DNA of 45,362 bases from Coriobacteriia bacterium (GTDB lineage Bacteria; Actinomycetota; Coriobacteriia; Coriobacteriales; Eggerthellaceae): positions 1 to 45,362 of the forward strand of contig JAUNIP010000010.1 of the NCBI GenBank assembly GCA_030523425.1, written 5' to 3'. The notes beneath the pieces are model-generated. The model saw only the letters and a program-made list of their open reading frames with translations, ran no database searches and was not told where the DNA came from. The position numbers were made by a program, and so were the translations under genes. This document shows, piece by piece, positions 35,335 to 42,129 of this stretch; position 1 is the first letter of the stretch; each line of letters starts with the position of its first letter.

Positions 35335-38300
35335 TTATGCTTCTTCCGCTTCCGGCAGGCTTTTCGCCAGGTTAGAGCGGCGGGTTAGCAGGTAGAACAG
35401 CAGGCTGGCGGCCAACAGCAGCGCGCCTAGGGCCACGCATCCGGCGAAGGCGCCGAAGGTCAGAAATACGCCCAACAAGGCCGCTCGCGTGGCGGTGGCG
35501 GCGTTTTCAGCGGTAAGGATGAGCGGCAGCACCTGTTCGTCGGAAAAGCCGCGGCGGCGGGTTTCGCGGGGCCAAATAAGGTGCAGGGCGGGGTAGCACA
35601 CCTCGGCCGCAATGCCTATGAGCACCAGCACCACCAGGCTCCACACAAAGGTGTGGTTCGCCAAGAAGCCCACCAGTAGCAGGCCGGCGAACGCCAGGCA
35701 GATGCTTATGACGCCCCACATGTTCACGCGTTGCAAGGCCCGCGCCACGCTTCCGCTCACGCTGTATTGGAACACGTGCGCCAACACCACCAGCGTGGTG
35801 ATGGACGCCGTGGCCGCCCCGCCACCGGTGGCGAACAGCGGGAACAGGTAGTGCGCATAGCCGCCTATGGCCGCTAAGGGCAGCACGCCGCACAGGAAGA
35901 ACACCAGCAGGGCGGGCGTAAGCAGCAGCCTCAGGTTCACGCGGGCGGAATGGACCAGTTCCTTGTGCAGGGGGCCGTCGAACGTGACGGCTTCCTCGGT
36001 TTCGGTGAAGTGCGTGCTCTTCGGTAGGTAGCGCAACACGGTCAGCAAGGCCAACGACAACACCACGCCCAGCAAGAACGCCGCACCGAAGCCAACATAT
36101 TGCGCCACGAAGCCAGCCAAAATGACCGGCAGGGTGCTGGCGGCCAATTCCGCGTGCTTTAAATCTTCCAGGCGCTCGTGGCGCTCGGATTGGGTGGTCG
36201 AGCGAACCACCAGGGCGTTAGCCGAGCTCAGCAACATCGACCTTAGCAGGCCGTTCACCACTTCCAGCACGCAGAACGCCACAAAGGTGCCGCTCCAGGC
36301 CGCCCCGGCAACGGCTGCCATCAGTGCGGCTTCCACCACGGCGGTAGCGCCCACTATGCGGCGGATGGAAAACCGCTTCGCCAGCAGGCGGAACGTTAGG
36401 GCGCCAGGCACCAAGCCAATGCCGTAGCACAGCACGGGCAAGCCGGTCAGTTCATTTACGCCTGCAAACGAACTGGCGGCCAACACGCTGCCAGATGCCA
36501 GCACCAGCACCACCGAATCGAATTCCATCAGGGAAAACACGCCTATGGCGTAAGTGCGCACCATGTTTGTTTCCGGGCGCTGTTCGCCGCGTGCCTGTGC
36601 CGCCAAGAACTGTTTGCGGTTGCGCAGGAAATGTCTTAGCTCAACCACCACCAAATACGTTATGCAGCCTATGGCCAAAAGCGTCAGGATCAGGCGCACG
36701 CCGTTGTTGGCCAGCGCCATGTCCATGGCGCTGGTGTAGCCGGCAAGCACCAAAATGCCCACCGGGTTGCCCTGGGAAGAAAACACCGGCACCGCGCTGC
36801 ACTGGAAGCGCCCCTGCTCGTTTTCGGTGGAGTAGGAATACACGTTGGGGGGATTGTCGGAAAGCATGGTTTTCACCTGGTCAGCGGGGAATTCCTGCTG
36901 GGGACAGCCCACTTGGTCGGAAGAGCGGTATGTGGCCGCCACATAGGTGTTGCCGTTTTCGTCCGCCGAAAACAGGGTGTAGCCCAATGCCGCGCCGCTG
37001 CTGGTGGAGCTTTCGCACAGGGCGTCAAGGTAGGCTTTCGCGGTATCAAGATGCTGCTTGCTTTCCGCGAAGCCTTCCGCCGACAAGGCGCTGCCGACGT
37101 GGGCCGCTTCCAGATCGGGCCCGAAGGTGGTAGGCGACGTGCGCGACATGAACTCCGCTATGCTTTCCACGCGCTGGTCCAAGGCGTCGCGCTGGTAGGT
37201 GCCAATCTGGGTCAGGAAGAACACCGCGCACGCCACCAGTACGCACATGCTCACCAGGGCGGTGATGTTGCGCCGCACGGCTGCTAAGGCGCGGTGCGTC
37301 TTGCGGTTGCGGATGGCCACCACCACGCCCACCACGGCCAGCGCCAACAAGCACAGAAGCGACGTCCATTTCGCCAGCACGGAAGCCGCGAAATGCAGGC
37401 TGTAGGGCACGGTGGTTATGGTGGTCAGGTGCGCGTGCGAAGCGCTCAGGCTGTCTTGGGACAGCAGGTCGTTCAGGCTGCTGATTTCGCCGCTGTAGGG
37501 GATCAGCTTGTTTTCGGGCTGGGTGGCGTCGAACAGCACCGCTGCTTCGCTGCCCCGTTCGCACCACACGATGTTGTTCCCGTTCACGCTCAGATACGTT
37601 GCAGGGTTGTTGGCGCCTAAGTCTATGCGCAGGGCCTGGGCGTGCTGGTCGTCCACGTACAAGATGCTATTTCGCAGCTGGTCGGCGAACACCATGCCGT
37701 TTTCGCCTACCAGCGCCGCCAAGGAAATAAGCGAATCGGTGGAGTCTTCGAATAGCAATTCGGTGACATTGTCGGATGCCAGATACACGGCGCCGGTGAT
37801 GGTGCTTACCACGGCGTAGCTGCTTTCGTCATTGTAGGCAGCGAAGTAGGGCAGGTCGGTGAAGGTGGTCTTCCATAGGTCGGACGTGGTGCCGTCCGGC
37901 GCAACATGCCGGGCCGTCATGCTGTCATACTGGTGCACCAGCAGGTTCACGCCGTCTTCGGCCACGTTGATGGCAATCATAGATTCGGTGCAGGTACGGT
38001 CGTCCTTTTCGTGGTGCAGGGTGTATAAGGTGCTTTTGTAGTTTCCGCGTGCGTCGTAGAGCAGCAGCTTCTCGTTTTCTATGTAGTTGGTGCCTTCGTA
38101 GTAGGTAAGGCCGGCAAGGTAATAGTCTTCGCCGCTTACTGCCACGTCGAACACATGGGACACTTGCTGGTTTGACCAGGGCGAACCCAACACCAGGTAG
38201 TTCAAAAGCTGGCGGTTGGCATCCAAGAACAGCACGCGTTGTTCCTGCGAGTCAACAATGGCCATGCGGCCGTCTTCGCTTGTTGCCACGGCTGCGGGGT

Positions 38301-38493
38301 TGGAAAGCGTGGTTGAAAGCGGGAAAGGCGCAGGCAGCGGCTTGCCCACAATGAACGCCAGCCCCACCAGCGAAGCGCACAACAGCAGCACCACTGCCAC
38401 ATGCAGCGGGCGCCATCCTCGCACGGGGCGCAGCACACTTATCAGCTGCTCCGGCGTGCTTTCGGTTGCGTTGTTGCTTGGCGTTTCGGTCAC
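35335..38493 (-). CDS. Large sensor-MFS fusion membrane protein
   Basis: A 1052-residue protein of unusual build, unrecognised as a named family. From the N-terminus: cytosolic tail, helix ~31-50, an extracytoplasmic region of ~320 residues with repeated beta-strand patterns (for example DGRMAIVDSQ, GEDYYLAGL, KLLLYDARGN) suggesting a beta-propeller; helices ~373-395 and ~410-430; a second outside domain of ~160 residues resembling a Cache sensor (AALGYTLFSADENGNTYVA); helix ~598-618; then a 12-helix MFS-type domain (~643-1040). GTG 38493 is chosen because GAAAGGG lies 6 bp upstream; a longer frame would run through a hairpin. Transport and sensing may be joined in one chain; substrate unknown. 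Confidence 0.8.
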   Translation of the reverse strand: MTETPSNNATESTPEQLISVLRPVRGWRPLHVAVVLLLCASLVGLAFIVGKPLPAPFPLSTTLSNPAAVATSEDGRMAIVDSQEQRVLFLDANRQLLNYLVLGSPWSNQQVSHVFDVAVSGEDYYLAGLTYYEGTNYIENEKLLLYDARGNYKSTLYTLHHEKDDRTCTESMIAINVAEDGVNLLVHQYDSMTARHVAPDGTTSDLWKTTFTDLPYFAAYNDESSYAVVSTITGAVYLASDNVTELLFEDSTDSLISLAALVGENGMVFADQLRNSILYVDDQHAQALRIDLGANNPATYLSVNGNNIVWCERGSEAAVLFDATQPENKLIPYSGEISSLNDLLSQDSLSASHAHLTTITTVPYSLHFAASVLAKWTSLLCLLALAVVGVVVAIRNRKTHRALAAVRRNITALVSMCVLVACAVFFLTQIGTYQRDALDQRVESIAEFMSRTSPTTFGPDLEAAHVGSALSAEGFAESKQHLDTAKAYLDALCESSTSSGAALGYTLFSADENGNTYVAATYRSSDQVGCPQQEFPADQVKTMLSDNPPNVYSYSTENEQGRFQCSAVPVFSSQGNPVGILVLAGYTSAMDMALANNGVRLILTLLAIGCITYLVVVELRHFLRNRKQFLAAQARGEQRPETNMVRTYAIGVFSLMEFDSVVLVLASGSVLAASSFAGVNELTGLPVLCYGIGLVPGALTFRLLAKRFSIRRIVGATAVVEAALMAAVAGAAWSGTFVAFCVLEVVNGLLRSMLLSSANALVVRSTTQSERHERLEDLKHAELAASTLPVILAGFVAQYVGFGAAFLLGVVLSLALLTVLRYLPKSTHFTETEEAVTFDGPLHKELVHSARVNLRLLLTPALLVFFLCGVLPLAAIGGYAHYLFPLFATGGGAATASITTLVVLAHVFQYSVSGSVARALQRVNMWGVISICLAFAGLLLVGFLANHTFVWSLVVLVLIGIAAEVCYPALHLIWPRETRRRGFSDEQVLPLILTAENAATATRAALLGVFLTFGAFAGCVALGALLLAASLLFYLLTRRSNLAKSLPEAEEA

Positions 38494-38581: not shown

Positions 38582-40270
38582 TTACTGACTGACCACCGGG
38601 GCCTTGCCTTCGGCACGCAGGCGCTCCAGGTTGGCCACTGCCAAGGCGTGGGCTTCTTCGGGGGCAGCTGCGGGCTTCTTCATCTTCGTTTTGCCCAGCA
38701 GGTTGGTGTAGGCGCCGTCGGCCCAGAAGATGTTGCGCTTCAGAAGCACGGTGATGGCAGCGAAGATGGGGCTGAGCACATTCACGAATGCGAACGGGAA
38801 GTACGCGAAGGGGCTAAGGCCTAGCACGCTCATCTGATAGGCGCCGCATGCCGTCCACGGGAACAGCGGCGACCACATGGTGCCGGCGTCTTCCAGCGTG
38901 CGCGAAAGCATGTTGCGGCCCAGGCCCTGTTCGTCGTACTTGTCAACGTAAAGCGGGGCGGGAATGCCTATGCCCAGGTATTGGTCGCACATCACGGCGT
39001 CGCACGCCAAGCTGGTGCCCAACGTGGCGCACACCAGGCTGCCGGGCTTGTTCAGGCGCTCTTTCAACGAACCGAAGATGCGCTGTACCGCGCCGCACCT
39101 CTCCAGCGCGCCGCCGAAGGACACGGCCAAAATGATAAGGCTGATGGTCCACATCTGGTTTTCCAGGCCGCCCTTGGAAAGCGCCGCGTCAACCAGTTCA
39201 TTGCCGGTTTCAATGCCGGGGCCGTAATGCAGAATGGCGAAGATGTCCGCTAGTGCCATGCTTCCGTCGGAGCCTAGCATGTTGGTTTGGAACACCACGC
39301 AGAAGATGATGCCTACCAGCACCGAAACCGTAATACCGATAAGCCCGGGCACGCGCATCGCGCACACCACAATCACCACCACAATGGGCAGCAGCAGCAC
39401 CGGGTTGATCCAGAAGGTTTCGGCTATGGCTTCCTGGATGCCGGTTGCCACGCTGGGGTCATACCCGGCACCCGTAACGCCCACGCCCAAAATGGTGTAG
39501 ATGACCAGCGCAATCACGAACACAGGGCCCGTGGTGGAAGCCATGGCCCGCACGTGGTCGAACAGGTCGGTTTCGGCCACGGCGGCCGCTAAGTTGGTGG
39601 TGTCGGAAAGCGGCGAAAACTTGTCGCCCACGTAAGCGCCGGAAATGATCATGCCGGCAGTCAGCGCAGGGTTGATGCCCAAGCCCGTGCCGATGGTCAT
39701 AAACGCCACGCCCACCGTGGCCGTAGCGGTCCACGAAGACCCGCATGCCATGCCCACCAGCGCGCACAAAATGCAGCCTACCGGCAAGAACGTTTGAGGT
39801 GAAAGCAAATCCAGGCCGTAATAGATAAGCGCCGGGATGGTGCCGCTTATCATGAAGCTGGAAATCAGGAAGCCCACCATGAACAGAATCAGGATGGCCT
39901 CAAGTGAGGTGGTAATGCGTTCGATGATGCCCTTCATCATGTCGGAGAACTTGCGCCCATACGCAATGCCCACTATGCAGGAAACCACAATGCTGCAGGC
40001 CAAGGGCAGGTGCGCAGCATCGTAGATTTCGGCATCGTGAATGAAGCCGAACACGTACACCATCAAAGCCACCATAATCACGATGGGCAGAAGCGCTGCC
40101 CACAGCGGGGGCAGCCGCGGGCCTTCCGCGGTGGCCGTGGGTTGTTCGGGGCTTGGGGCCGCAGCAGACTCCGGCGCGTTGGCGGGCGCTGCCTGCGCGG
40201 CGGCGTCCGCAGCGCGGGCGGCTTCAGTTTCGTCTAGGGGCAACGTGCTTTCTTGCGGTTCGTCTGACAT
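38582..40270 (-). CDS. nhaC: Na+/H+ antiporter NhaC
   Basis: A 562-residue member of the NhaC family exchanging Na+ for H+. About 12 hydrophobic helices; typical segments are MACGSSWTATATVGVAF, SGAYVGDKFSPLSDTTNLAA and the ending ACGAYQMSVLGLSPFAYFPFA. The N-terminal ~55 residues are an Ala/Pro/Glu-rich cytosolic extension. AAGGAA precedes the ATG. It follows the flavin-binding-protein gene by 36 bp on the same strand. In a cell with a sodium-pumping decarboxylase it would link the Na+ and H+ gradients. Confidence 0.9.
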   Translation of the reverse strand: MSDEPQESTLPLDETEAARAADAAAQAAPANAPESAAAPSPEQPTATAEGPRLPPLWAALLPIVIMVALMVYVFGFIHDAEIYDAAHLPLACSIVVSCIVGIAYGRKFSDMMKGIIERITTSLEAILILFMVGFLISSFMISGTIPALIYYGLDLLSPQTFLPVGCILCALVGMACGSSWTATATVGVAFMTIGTGLGINPALTAGMIISGAYVGDKFSPLSDTTNLAAAVAETDLFDHVRAMASTTGPVFVIALVIYTILGVGVTGAGYDPSVATGIQEAIAETFWINPVLLLPIVVVIVVCAMRVPGLIGITVSVLVGIIFCVVFQTNMLGSDGSMALADIFAILHYGPGIETGNELVDAALSKGGLENQMWTISLIILAVSFGGALERCGAVQRIFGSLKERLNKPGSLVCATLGTSLACDAVMCDQYLGIGIPAPLYVDKYDEQGLGRNMLSRTLEDAGTMWSPLFPWTACGAYQMSVLGLSPFAYFPFAFVNVLSPIFAAITVLLKRNIFWADGAYTNLLGKTKMKKPAAAPEEAHALAVANLERLRAEGKAPVVSQ

Positions 40271-40812: not shown

Positions 40813-41793
40813 TCAGTATTGCGGCACCAGCACCTGCAGCGCGCCGGGGATGCATGCTATGTCGAAGTCGGTGCCTTCCATTCGTTCGCCGTCTGCTTGG
40901 ATGGGCGGCTGGGCTTCGAAGTGCAGGTGCAGCTTGCGGGCGCGCAAAAACTCTATGGGCTTGCAGCCGGTGTGGTGGCCGCCTTTCGCCATCAGGAAGA
41001 TGCGCACGGCGTTAGGCCTGGCTATGGGCGCATGCGCGATGCAGATGTCTAGCAGGCCGTCGTCTAGGCGCGCATCGGGGCAAATGTGGAAGCCGCCGCC
41101 GTAGCGGGTACCAATTTGCACGGCCACCAGGTGCAGGTTAGCCGTTAGGGTGCCGGCGGGGTCTAAGTCTTCCACGGCGCGGGCGGTGCCCTTTTCGTAG
41201 CGCACGCGCGTGCCGTCTTGTGCCTGCAGCTGGAAGGCGTAGGGGTCCATGTGGTGCAGCAGCTGTTCGCGGGCGGAATCCAGGTACAGGCGGGTGCCGG
41301 AATGCCCCGACTTCTGGCGCAGCTCCACCGTGCCCAAGGCTATGGCGGCATCCAGCCCGAAGGACAGCGTTTCCAGGTAGTATGTGCCGTTGACACACCC
41401 CACGTCTAACGGGCGGGCTTTAGCGGCCAGCAGGACATCCACGGCATCACCCACCTTGGTGGGAAGCTTCAGCGCGCCTGCGTAGTCGTTGCCGCAGCCG
41501 GCGGGCACCAACCCGAAGGTGGGTCGCTGCTGCGCGGGCAGCTCCATCAGGCCGTTGCACACTTCGTGGGCCAAGCCGTCACCGCCAACTGCCACGATGG
41601 TGCCTGCTTGAAAGGCAGCCGCCTGTTTGGCCAGCTCAAGGGCGTGGTTGGGCGCCTGGGTCATCATCAGGTCTACGTGTTCGGGCCCTACGGCTGCACT
41701 CAGGCGCTTGTACACCTGCGCAGCTATGGCCGCCCCCTTGCCGTTTTGGGAAGCCGGATTGGCGATGATGCTTATGTGGCGGGAAGTGTCCAT
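40813..41793 (-). CDS. Diacylglycerol kinase / YegS-like lipid kinase
   Basis: A 326-residue member of the DAGK catalytic family that phosphorylates diacylglycerol or a related lipid. The nucleotide site VAVGGDGLAHEVCNG, the LVPAGCGNDYAGAL motif and the C-terminal ARLDDGLLDI are intact. The ATG at 41793 gives the typical start HISIIANPASQNGKG; upstream in-frame sequence is not family-like and would run through the divergent GIY-YIG gene. No ribosome-binding site precedes it and a TATACT -10-like hexamer ends 6 bp upstream, so the mRNA may be leaderless. Confidence 0.88.
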   Translation of the reverse strand: MDTSRHISIIANPASQNGKGAAIAAQVYKRLSAAVGPEHVDLMMTQAPNHALELAKQAAAFQAGTIVAVGGDGLAHEVCNGLMELPAQQRPTFGLVPAGCGNDYAGALKLPTKVGDAVDVLLAAKARPLDVGCVNGTYYLETLSFGLDAAIALGTVELRQKSGHSGTRLYLDSAREQLLHHMDPYAFQLQAQDGTRVRYEKGTARAVEDLDPAGTLTANLHLVAVQIGTRYGGGFHICPDARLDDGLLDICIAHAPIARPNAVRIFLMAKGGHHTGCKPIEFLRARKLHLHFEAQPPIQADGERMEGTDFDIACIPGALQVLVPQY

Positions 41794-41820
41794 AGGCACA
41801 GTATATGTCACAATGGCCGC
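41794..41820. promoter_or_regulatory. 27-bp divergent promoter region, possibly leaderless
   Basis: The whole gap between two divergent start codons is 27 bp. On the minus strand TATACT (41800-41805) ends 6 bp before the lipid kinase ATG. On the plus strand TATATG (41802-41807) lies 13 bp before the GIY-YIG ATG. The two -10-like elements overlap and neither gene has a ribosome-binding site. Confidence 0.45.
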
Positions 41821-42129
41821 ATGGAACAGTTCGAACATTATCTGTATGTGGTTGAGTGCGCCGACGGGTCGCTGTATACCGGCTATGCCATCAACGTGGA
41901 AAAGCGCGTGGCCGCGCACAACGCGGGGAAAGGCGCCAAGTACACGAAGGCGCGCCTGCCGGTAGCGCTTTTGGCACAGGCGGGCTTTTCCACGAAGCAC
42001 CAGGCCATGAGCGCGGAATACCGCTTCAAGCAGCTGTCGCGCAACGAAAAGGATGCCCTGTTGGCCCAAGCGGCGCGCCGTCCCTTCGCCCAGGTGCTGC
42101 TGGAAGCCTTCCCGGAGTTGGGGGAGTAA
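41821..42129 (+). CDS. GIY-YIG domain protein (UPF0213/YhbQ-like)
   Basis: A 102-residue single GIY-YIG nuclease-fold domain. The two diagnostic motifs are YLYVVEC and SLYTGYA, followed by R32-like and the conserved GKGAKYTKARLPV stretch and SAEYRFKQLSRNEK. YhbQ-type proteins are linked to DNA repair or nicking, not clearly defined. ATG 41821 has no ribosome-binding site and lies 27 bp from the divergent lipid kinase start. It is convergent with degV (6 bp between stops). Confidence 0.88.
   Translation: MEQFEHYLYVVECADGSLYTGYAINVEKRVAAHNAGKGAKYTKARLPVALLAQAGFSTKHQAMSAEYRFKQLSRNEKDALLAQAARRPFAQVLLEAFPELGE

Follow-up and report, generated by a model that had tools for sequence, protein, structure and literature searches.

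How does a bacterium use a protein that joins, in a single chain, two domains outside the membrane to a transporter core within it? The question is raised by a gene in the window, the whole stretch of 45,362 nucleotides analysed here (contig JAUNIP010000010.1 of the Coriobacteriia bacterium assembly GCA_030523425.1). We suggest that the product of this gene may be a secondary transporter whose fused sensors place it under the control of extracytoplasmic ligands, a reading to which we give a probability of about 0.45 and in which transport activity, ligand and gating are all putative. The original prediction, of a transporter gated by or signalling from a sensed ligand, is plausible but unproven.

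The fusion gene and its neighbourhood

The fusion gene is preceded by GAAAGGG, six bases upstream of its GTG start codon at 38493. A further GTG at 38616 would extend the product to 1093 aa, and we regard 38493 as the likelier start because the longer frame would overlap the end of the upstream nhaC gene. The expected single-frame fusion of outside domains to a major facilitator superfamily (MFS) domain was borne out, with one unbroken open frame running through the locus. Its features, and those directly upstream, are the following.

35335..38493 (-): whole fusion gene, 1052 aa, GTG start, stop codon at 35335-35337
35383..36576 (-): 12-helix MFS core (residues 640-1037), D659 in helix 1; Pfam, AlphaFold2, fold matches and conservation
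36634..36732 (-): predicted TM4 (residues 588-620), running into the MFS core and carrying E618; AlphaFold2 and conservation
36733..37203 (-): Cache-like extracytoplasmic domain (residues 431-587); model secondary structure, with Pfam sCache_3 / dCache_1 matches in relatives only
37204..37398 (-): predicted TM2/TM3 helix pair (residues 366-395 and 400-430); AlphaFold2 and hydropathy
37408..38316 (-): predicted extracytoplasmic beta-propeller (residues 60-362); models and fold matches to six-bladed NHL-type propellers
38350..38412 (-): predicted TM1, the N-terminal anchor (residues 28-48); AlphaFold2 helix and hydropathy, probably N-in from the preceding positive residues
38526..38558 (-): 12-bp GC-rich hairpin between the nhaC stop and the fusion start
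38582..40270 (-): NhaC-type Na+/H+ antiporter gene, the upstream neighbour in the window only

The fusion gene of the window follows nhaC at a distance of 92 bp, with the hairpin in between. The hairpin scores z -3.11 against shuffled sequences, none of 200 shuffles folding as well, and is terminator- or attenuator-like with a weak T run; it is absent from the terminator-scan output for the window. Whether relatives keep the same place next to nhaC had been posed as a check, and they do not: NhaC adjoins the fusion in 0 of 48 other loci, which include at least six duplicates and some short flanks (L069, L070, L071, L073, L074 and L086 were taken as repeats of L025, L020, L033, L026, L018 and L037, respectively, so that the loci of this neighbourhood survey are not all distinct). 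A functional link to NhaC as a conserved feature was thus ruled out, and nhaC offers no guide to the function of the fusion because the adjacency is not kept and a strong hairpin separates the two genes.

Further along the window, a diacylglycerol-kinase-type frame at 40813-42069 (-) has a long open 5′ part that is overlapped by a GIY-YIG open reading frame at 41566-42129 (+); the kinase probably starts further in than its longest frame would place it.

Predicted architecture

The whole protein was modelled with AlphaFold2 from a 24-row alignment (A2), in which three rows are partial and one is without the N-terminus: the frame of L027 breaks before it, and L034, L023 and L024 are cut by contig ends. 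Among the other relatives, L014 was read from the preceding stop and the start of L101 is an arbitrary codon. The model reached a mean pLDDT of 78 and a pTM of 0.73, measures under which the placement of domains relative to one another carries no score, and a separate model of residues 1-640 from 19 rows (pLDDT 73.8, pTM 0.72) gave matching elements. From the N-terminus the model has a helix at 28-48, strands at 60-364, helices at 366-395 and 400-456, a helix/strand domain to residue 586, a helix at 588-635 and then the 12 MFS helices within residues 640-1037, which makes a total of 4 + 12 predicted transmembrane helices. The order first proposed from the letters of the DNA (beta-rich outside region, helix pair, Cache-like domain, 12-helix MFS domain) is the order seen in this model, and folded domains are predicted outside the MFS core in the form of both the propeller, which accounts for the long extracytoplasmic beta-rich region at about residues 60-362, and the Cache-like domain. 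Basic residues cluster at 24-29, 395-409 and 619-640; by the positive-inside rule the N-terminus would be inside, the propeller outside, the helical hairpin inside, the Cache-like domain outside and the N-terminus of the MFS core inside.

Residues 59-362 are predicted to adopt a propeller fold closest to six-bladed NHL-type propellers, with matches to the Brat NHL domain (Z 18.8, rmsd 3.7, 243 residues aligned), the Pizza6 design (Z 18.7) and the PknD sensor (1rwi, Z 17.0). No NHL repeat model of Pfam matched the window protein at E up to 10, and NHL was not among the 25 Pfam families listed for A2. The cytoplasmic part of PknD is a Ser/Thr kinase. An NHL-type propeller placed outside the cell is common to the extracellular sensor of PknD from M. 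tuberculosis, to other NHL propellers and to the model of the window protein; unlike PknD, the window protein combines its propeller, which lacks a detectable NHL Pfam repeat, with a Cache-like domain and a transporter.

The predicted order of elements that follows (H400-456, H472-498, E503, E516, H537, E552, E561, E577, H588-635) appears to fit the Cache pattern of a long N-terminal helix and then an alpha/beta core, outside the membrane and between two transmembrane helices. Of the proposed Cache-like outside domain, the folded domain at about 431-587 stood and is accompanied by Cache models in relatives, whereas no Cache model of Pfam matched the window protein itself at E up to 10. We therefore use the term Cache-like, an assignment that rests on relatives: sCache_3_2 at 4.6e-6 in L101 (27.2 bits, just below the cut-off of 28.4), at 4.6e-4 in L084 (20.7 bits) and at 0.0016 in one A2 member, and dCache_1 at 0.027 in L002. 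Cache structures were absent from the fold matches listed because propeller and MFS structures had taken the places. Cache domains form an established class of sensors, for which the main text of a survey gives chemoreceptors, kinases, c-di-GMP enzymes, phosphatases, cyclases, transcription factors and ion channels as outputs and uses the words 'MFS' and 'transporter' 0 times (PMC4822843). The window protein resembles Cache-domain receptors (chemoreceptors, histidine kinases, SpoIIE phosphatases) in the predicted presence of a single membrane-anchored Cache-like domain outside, between two transmembrane helices, and differs from them in its output, an MFS core.

The MFS core

The window protein belongs to the major facilitator superfamily. 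Pfam MFS_1 matches residues 671-982 at 55.5 bits (cut-off 33.4), the sole Pfam match over its cut-off, and the predicted fold has 12 helices; NCBIfam gave nothing over cut-off. MFS_1 is found in all 24 A2 rows at E up to 1, and falls below its cut-off in two relatives (L080 and L082). Residues 629-1046 matched URAT1 (Z 33.7), SotB (33.4), VMAT2 (32.7) and NorA (32.7), the best 50 matches listed running from Z 33.7 to 29.7; because the top matches are close to tied, with SotB, NorA and VMAT2 (the DHA1 comparison) nearly level with URAT1 and OCT1, we assign no MFS subfamily. The fusion has the 12-helix core and Pfam MFS_1 in common with SotB, NorA, VMAT2 and URAT1, at Z 32-34 over about 342-378 residues, and none of the listed chains of this fold aligned outside the MFS core.

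Motif A, in the loop between MFS helices 2 and 3, includes an Asp that is missing from the fusion family: A2 reads GxLGSRVxIRKL, and the stretch in the window protein is TFRLLAKRFSIRRIV. We treat motif A as typical and not as defining, since it is degenerate in many MFS members. The missing Asp counts against the transporter reading.

Conservation is uneven along the chain. Over the 21 full-length rows the mean all-pairs identity is 43.0 and 41.9% in the two MFS halves, 38.6% in TM4, 28.8% in the Cache-like domain and 27.3% in the propeller, a distribution that would suit a transport engine that stays constant while its ligand sensors vary. Nine residues are invariant in all 24 rows (D659 in helix 1, E618 in TM4, P686, G697, Y879, P885, W951, W974 and G1023), and the invariance of D659, E618, Y879, P885, W951 and G1023 within the membrane argues for a working core. 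Position 744 is Lys in 21 of 24 rows and Glu in the window protein, and D659 is absent from the divergent subfamily 2 described below, so coupling may differ between members. At 1e-10, the 395 genomes of the order yielded no stand-alone MFS protein close to the fusion core, with the one exception of a CBS-domain MFS protein (G019).

Family, authenticity and distribution

A frameshift or assembly artefact had been named as a possible refutation, and it was ruled out by a full-length paralogue in the same genome (L002, 27% identity) and by relatives with the same layout in three phyla; the fusion is not limited to one assembly. By hydropathy, 25 of 28 near-full-length proteins, the window protein included, keep a strict layout of one transmembrane segment, a loop of 254-325 residues, two transmembrane segments, a loop of 132-182 residues and 10-13 hydrophobic segments, and each of the three exceptions (L015, L035 and L101) has one or more extra hydrophobic segments. 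The domain order is thus kept, and the earlier statement that no named family has it agrees with Pfam and NCBIfam, which return only MFS_1 or weak MFS models for the window protein and its relatives. Together these proteins look like a real, unnamed family in gut bacteria.

A search with the single protein matched 5 of 60 relatives, counting its own genome and one ordinary MFS protein (G006). A scan of one genome per species, which used one peptide pattern and so missed more distant members, gave 24 loci, of which 21 are Coriobacteriia-type or actinobacterial (Atopobiaceae and Eggerthellaceae among them), two are from Erysipelotrichaceae and one is from Sphaerochaetaceae; where the scanned records name a host, it is sheep, roe deer or horse. 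Searching with A2 at 1e-10 gave matches in 38 of 395 genomes of the order, spread over 12 of 123 genera and with sixteen positives in one genus (g317), although these 38 include G019, which is not a member, and several fragments. In a phylum-wide sample only the window's own genome was positive (1 of 396). The distribution of the family is patchy, with a concentration in gut lineages to judge from record titles. There was no match among 72,556 plasmid records.

A tree of 29 rows, drawn from a fast-evolving family, pairs the window protein with its paralogue L002 (support 87/79) and places L017 (Spirochaetota) with L030/L031 (Bacillota; 100/99), the latter flagged as a possible long-branch join. 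In 17 genomes the sensor block was found on no other output beyond the fusion family: among the 33 rows of that search one is a 191-aa frame with a stop (G509:C2) and the others are fusion-family genes or pieces, and the printed SpoIIE proteins of 800-1000 aa have, by eye, multi-TM or Cache-like N-termini and no propeller block.

G014 has a third fusion copy (L007 / L012, G014:C13), broken into two frames of 200 and 822 aa and so probably decaying or frameshifted.

A divergent subfamily beside SpoIIE phosphatase genes

A second group of fusions, subfamily 2, comprises L084 and L101 from the window's own order, together with L107/L111 and L108/L112, of which L111 and L112 came from an order-level search around an Erysipelotrichaceae genome. 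Its members are 45-60% identical to L084 and stand apart in the tree (100/100); L084 and L101 are about 16% identical to the window protein, with the domain order unchanged. They lie in a cluster of gene A, fusion and SpoIIE phosphatase. The phosphatase gene is the next on the strand, overlapping or abutting the fusion, in all three loci long enough to tell (L084, L111 and L112), and its product of 549-552 aa matches SpoIIE at 3e-45 (L084) and 1.9e-32 (the L107 piece). Gene A, of 376-408 aa, precedes the fusion in 4 of 4 loci (L084, L101, L111 and L112), and its L084 copy has no Pfam or NCBIfam match. Its copies just upstream of the fusion are as follows.

L084:10862-12016: gene A
L111:1082-2305: gene A
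L112:6548-7675: gene A

This cluster is the firmest functional context that we found, and it belongs to subfamily 2. A search for the subfamily matched 1 of 392 genomes of the window's own order, where the copy-holding G704 was not matched, and a Bacillota-wide search (0 of 392) is uninformative since its sample lists no known positive. Main-family fusions are directly followed by SpoIIE in G057 (L109) alone, 151 bp downstream, and in L021 a SpoIIE gene lies 2.3 kb away. SpoIIE matches occur in 21 of 21 family-positive genomes, the only genomes counted, at 2 to 17 each, and the window's own genome has three.

In genus g317 there are up to 17 SpoIIE-domain matches per genome, many of them in frames of 700-1000 aa and several with multi-TM N-termini.

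Alternative readings

The main rival to a sensor-controlled transporter is a receptor comparable to UhpC, in which the MFS core would relay a signal or sense a solute, and a SpoIIE-type (PP2C) phosphatase acting in trans by partner-switching would be the output. UhpC is an MFS-type sensor of glucose 6-phosphate and the receptor for the kinase UhpB, without a fused propeller or Cache domain. The fusion is like UhpC in being an MFS protein, one used in signalling in the case of UhpC; unlike UhpC with its kinase partner, the only signalling neighbour of the fusion is SpoIIE. An MFS sensor encoded beside its signalling partner, as in UhpBC, is what subfamily 2 offers, with SpoIIE directly after the fusion in 3/3 loci drawn from Actinomycetota and from the order of an Erysipelotrichaceae member, and with gene A before the fusion in 4/4; the L109 neighbour and the three SpoIIE matches in the window's own genome lean the same way, and the occurrence of SpoIIE beside subfamily 2 and one main-family member points to signalling over transport. 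However, the fusion in the window has no SpoIIE, STAS or kinase gene beside it, a single one of the main-family loci surveyed is directly followed by SpoIIE, the fusion is without a cytoplasmic output domain, and the SpoIIE numbers come from family-positive genomes only. We consider such a receptor possible, and less probable than the transporter.

A role in bacteriocin or RiPP peptide traffic (sensing, immunity or help with export) beside NHLP-type C39-peptidase exporters seems to us improbable, although several loci suggest it. NHLP exporter genes lie within 5 kb of the fusion in L015, L016, L021 and L035, in two genera and in opposite gene order (TIGR03796 is over cut-off in L021 and TIGR03797 in L016), and in L030 and L031, from Erysipelotrichaceae, genes for double-glycine-leader peptides lie directly downstream of the fusion (L030:5881-6204, L030:6260-6601 and L031:9996-10328). 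Genomes with a C39 exporter number 27 of 28 among the family-positive and 9 of 45 among the family-negative ones (by genus, 7/8 vs 9/42), sets that were hand-picked from 38 order positives and 55 negatives with relatedness and habitat uncontrolled. Yet the sole positive genome of the 28 without a C39 exporter is the window's own; the exporters are multicopy in the positives (1-8), so some adjacency is expected, and sixteen positives belong to a single genus, most of the positives being gut MAGs, so that phylogeny and habitat confound the comparison. Least probable of all, and by our estimate quite unlikely, is a passive role for the extra domains, as scaffolds or wall anchors of an ordinary exporter with no part in sensing. 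Their fast divergence (27-29% identity) and the Cache region's want of a Pfam match in the window protein would agree with this, but members from three phyla, and a subfamily at 16% identity, have retained the two domains, and Cache is a known sensor class (PMC4822843).

In the double-glycine peptides of L030 and L031 the cargo part is similar to the plug of TonB receptors from Bacteroidetes (Pfam Plug 3.7e-9 in L031; TIGR04056, SusC/RagA, 1.1e-15 in L030), and plug mimicry is possible; a literature search on plug-like double-glycine peptides returned nothing relevant.

Proposed mechanism and significance

In the sensor-controlled transporter that we favour, an extracytoplasmic ligand would bind the Cache-like domain, and the propeller would perhaps capture a ligand, peptide or wall component. 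TM3 and TM4, which enter and leave the Cache-like domain, could relay the change, TM4 continuing towards the first MFS helix, upon which the MFS core would open, close or change its rate. The cargo may be a small organic solute, its movement coupled to H+ perhaps with the participation of D659. The closest bacterial fold matches (SotB and NorA) are exporters, which makes export likelier than import, although URAT1 scores equally.

We put forward more tentatively a wider picture, of a receptor-transporter family whose Cache-like and propeller domains would act directly on the MFS core of the same chain. One branch would in addition feed an adjacent SpoIIE phosphatase, so that sensing, transport and partner-switching would be combined in a three-gene unit that may have moved between phyla of the herbivore gut. 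The modules are each of a known kind. In the literature searched, to which subscription papers and preprints did not belong, no relevant combination of Cache, propeller or SpoIIE with MFS was found, and both the combination and the subfamily 2 cluster appear undescribed within it.

If the favoured reading is right, the fusion would place a secondary transporter under the control of an extracellular sensor domain within a single chain, and the steering of the MFS cycle by an outside ligand would become testable in one purified protein. A transporter would be added to the known outputs of Cache domains, proteins that family models recognise just as MFS would gain a function, and the subfamily 2 cluster would represent a possible missing input for SpoIIE phosphatases.
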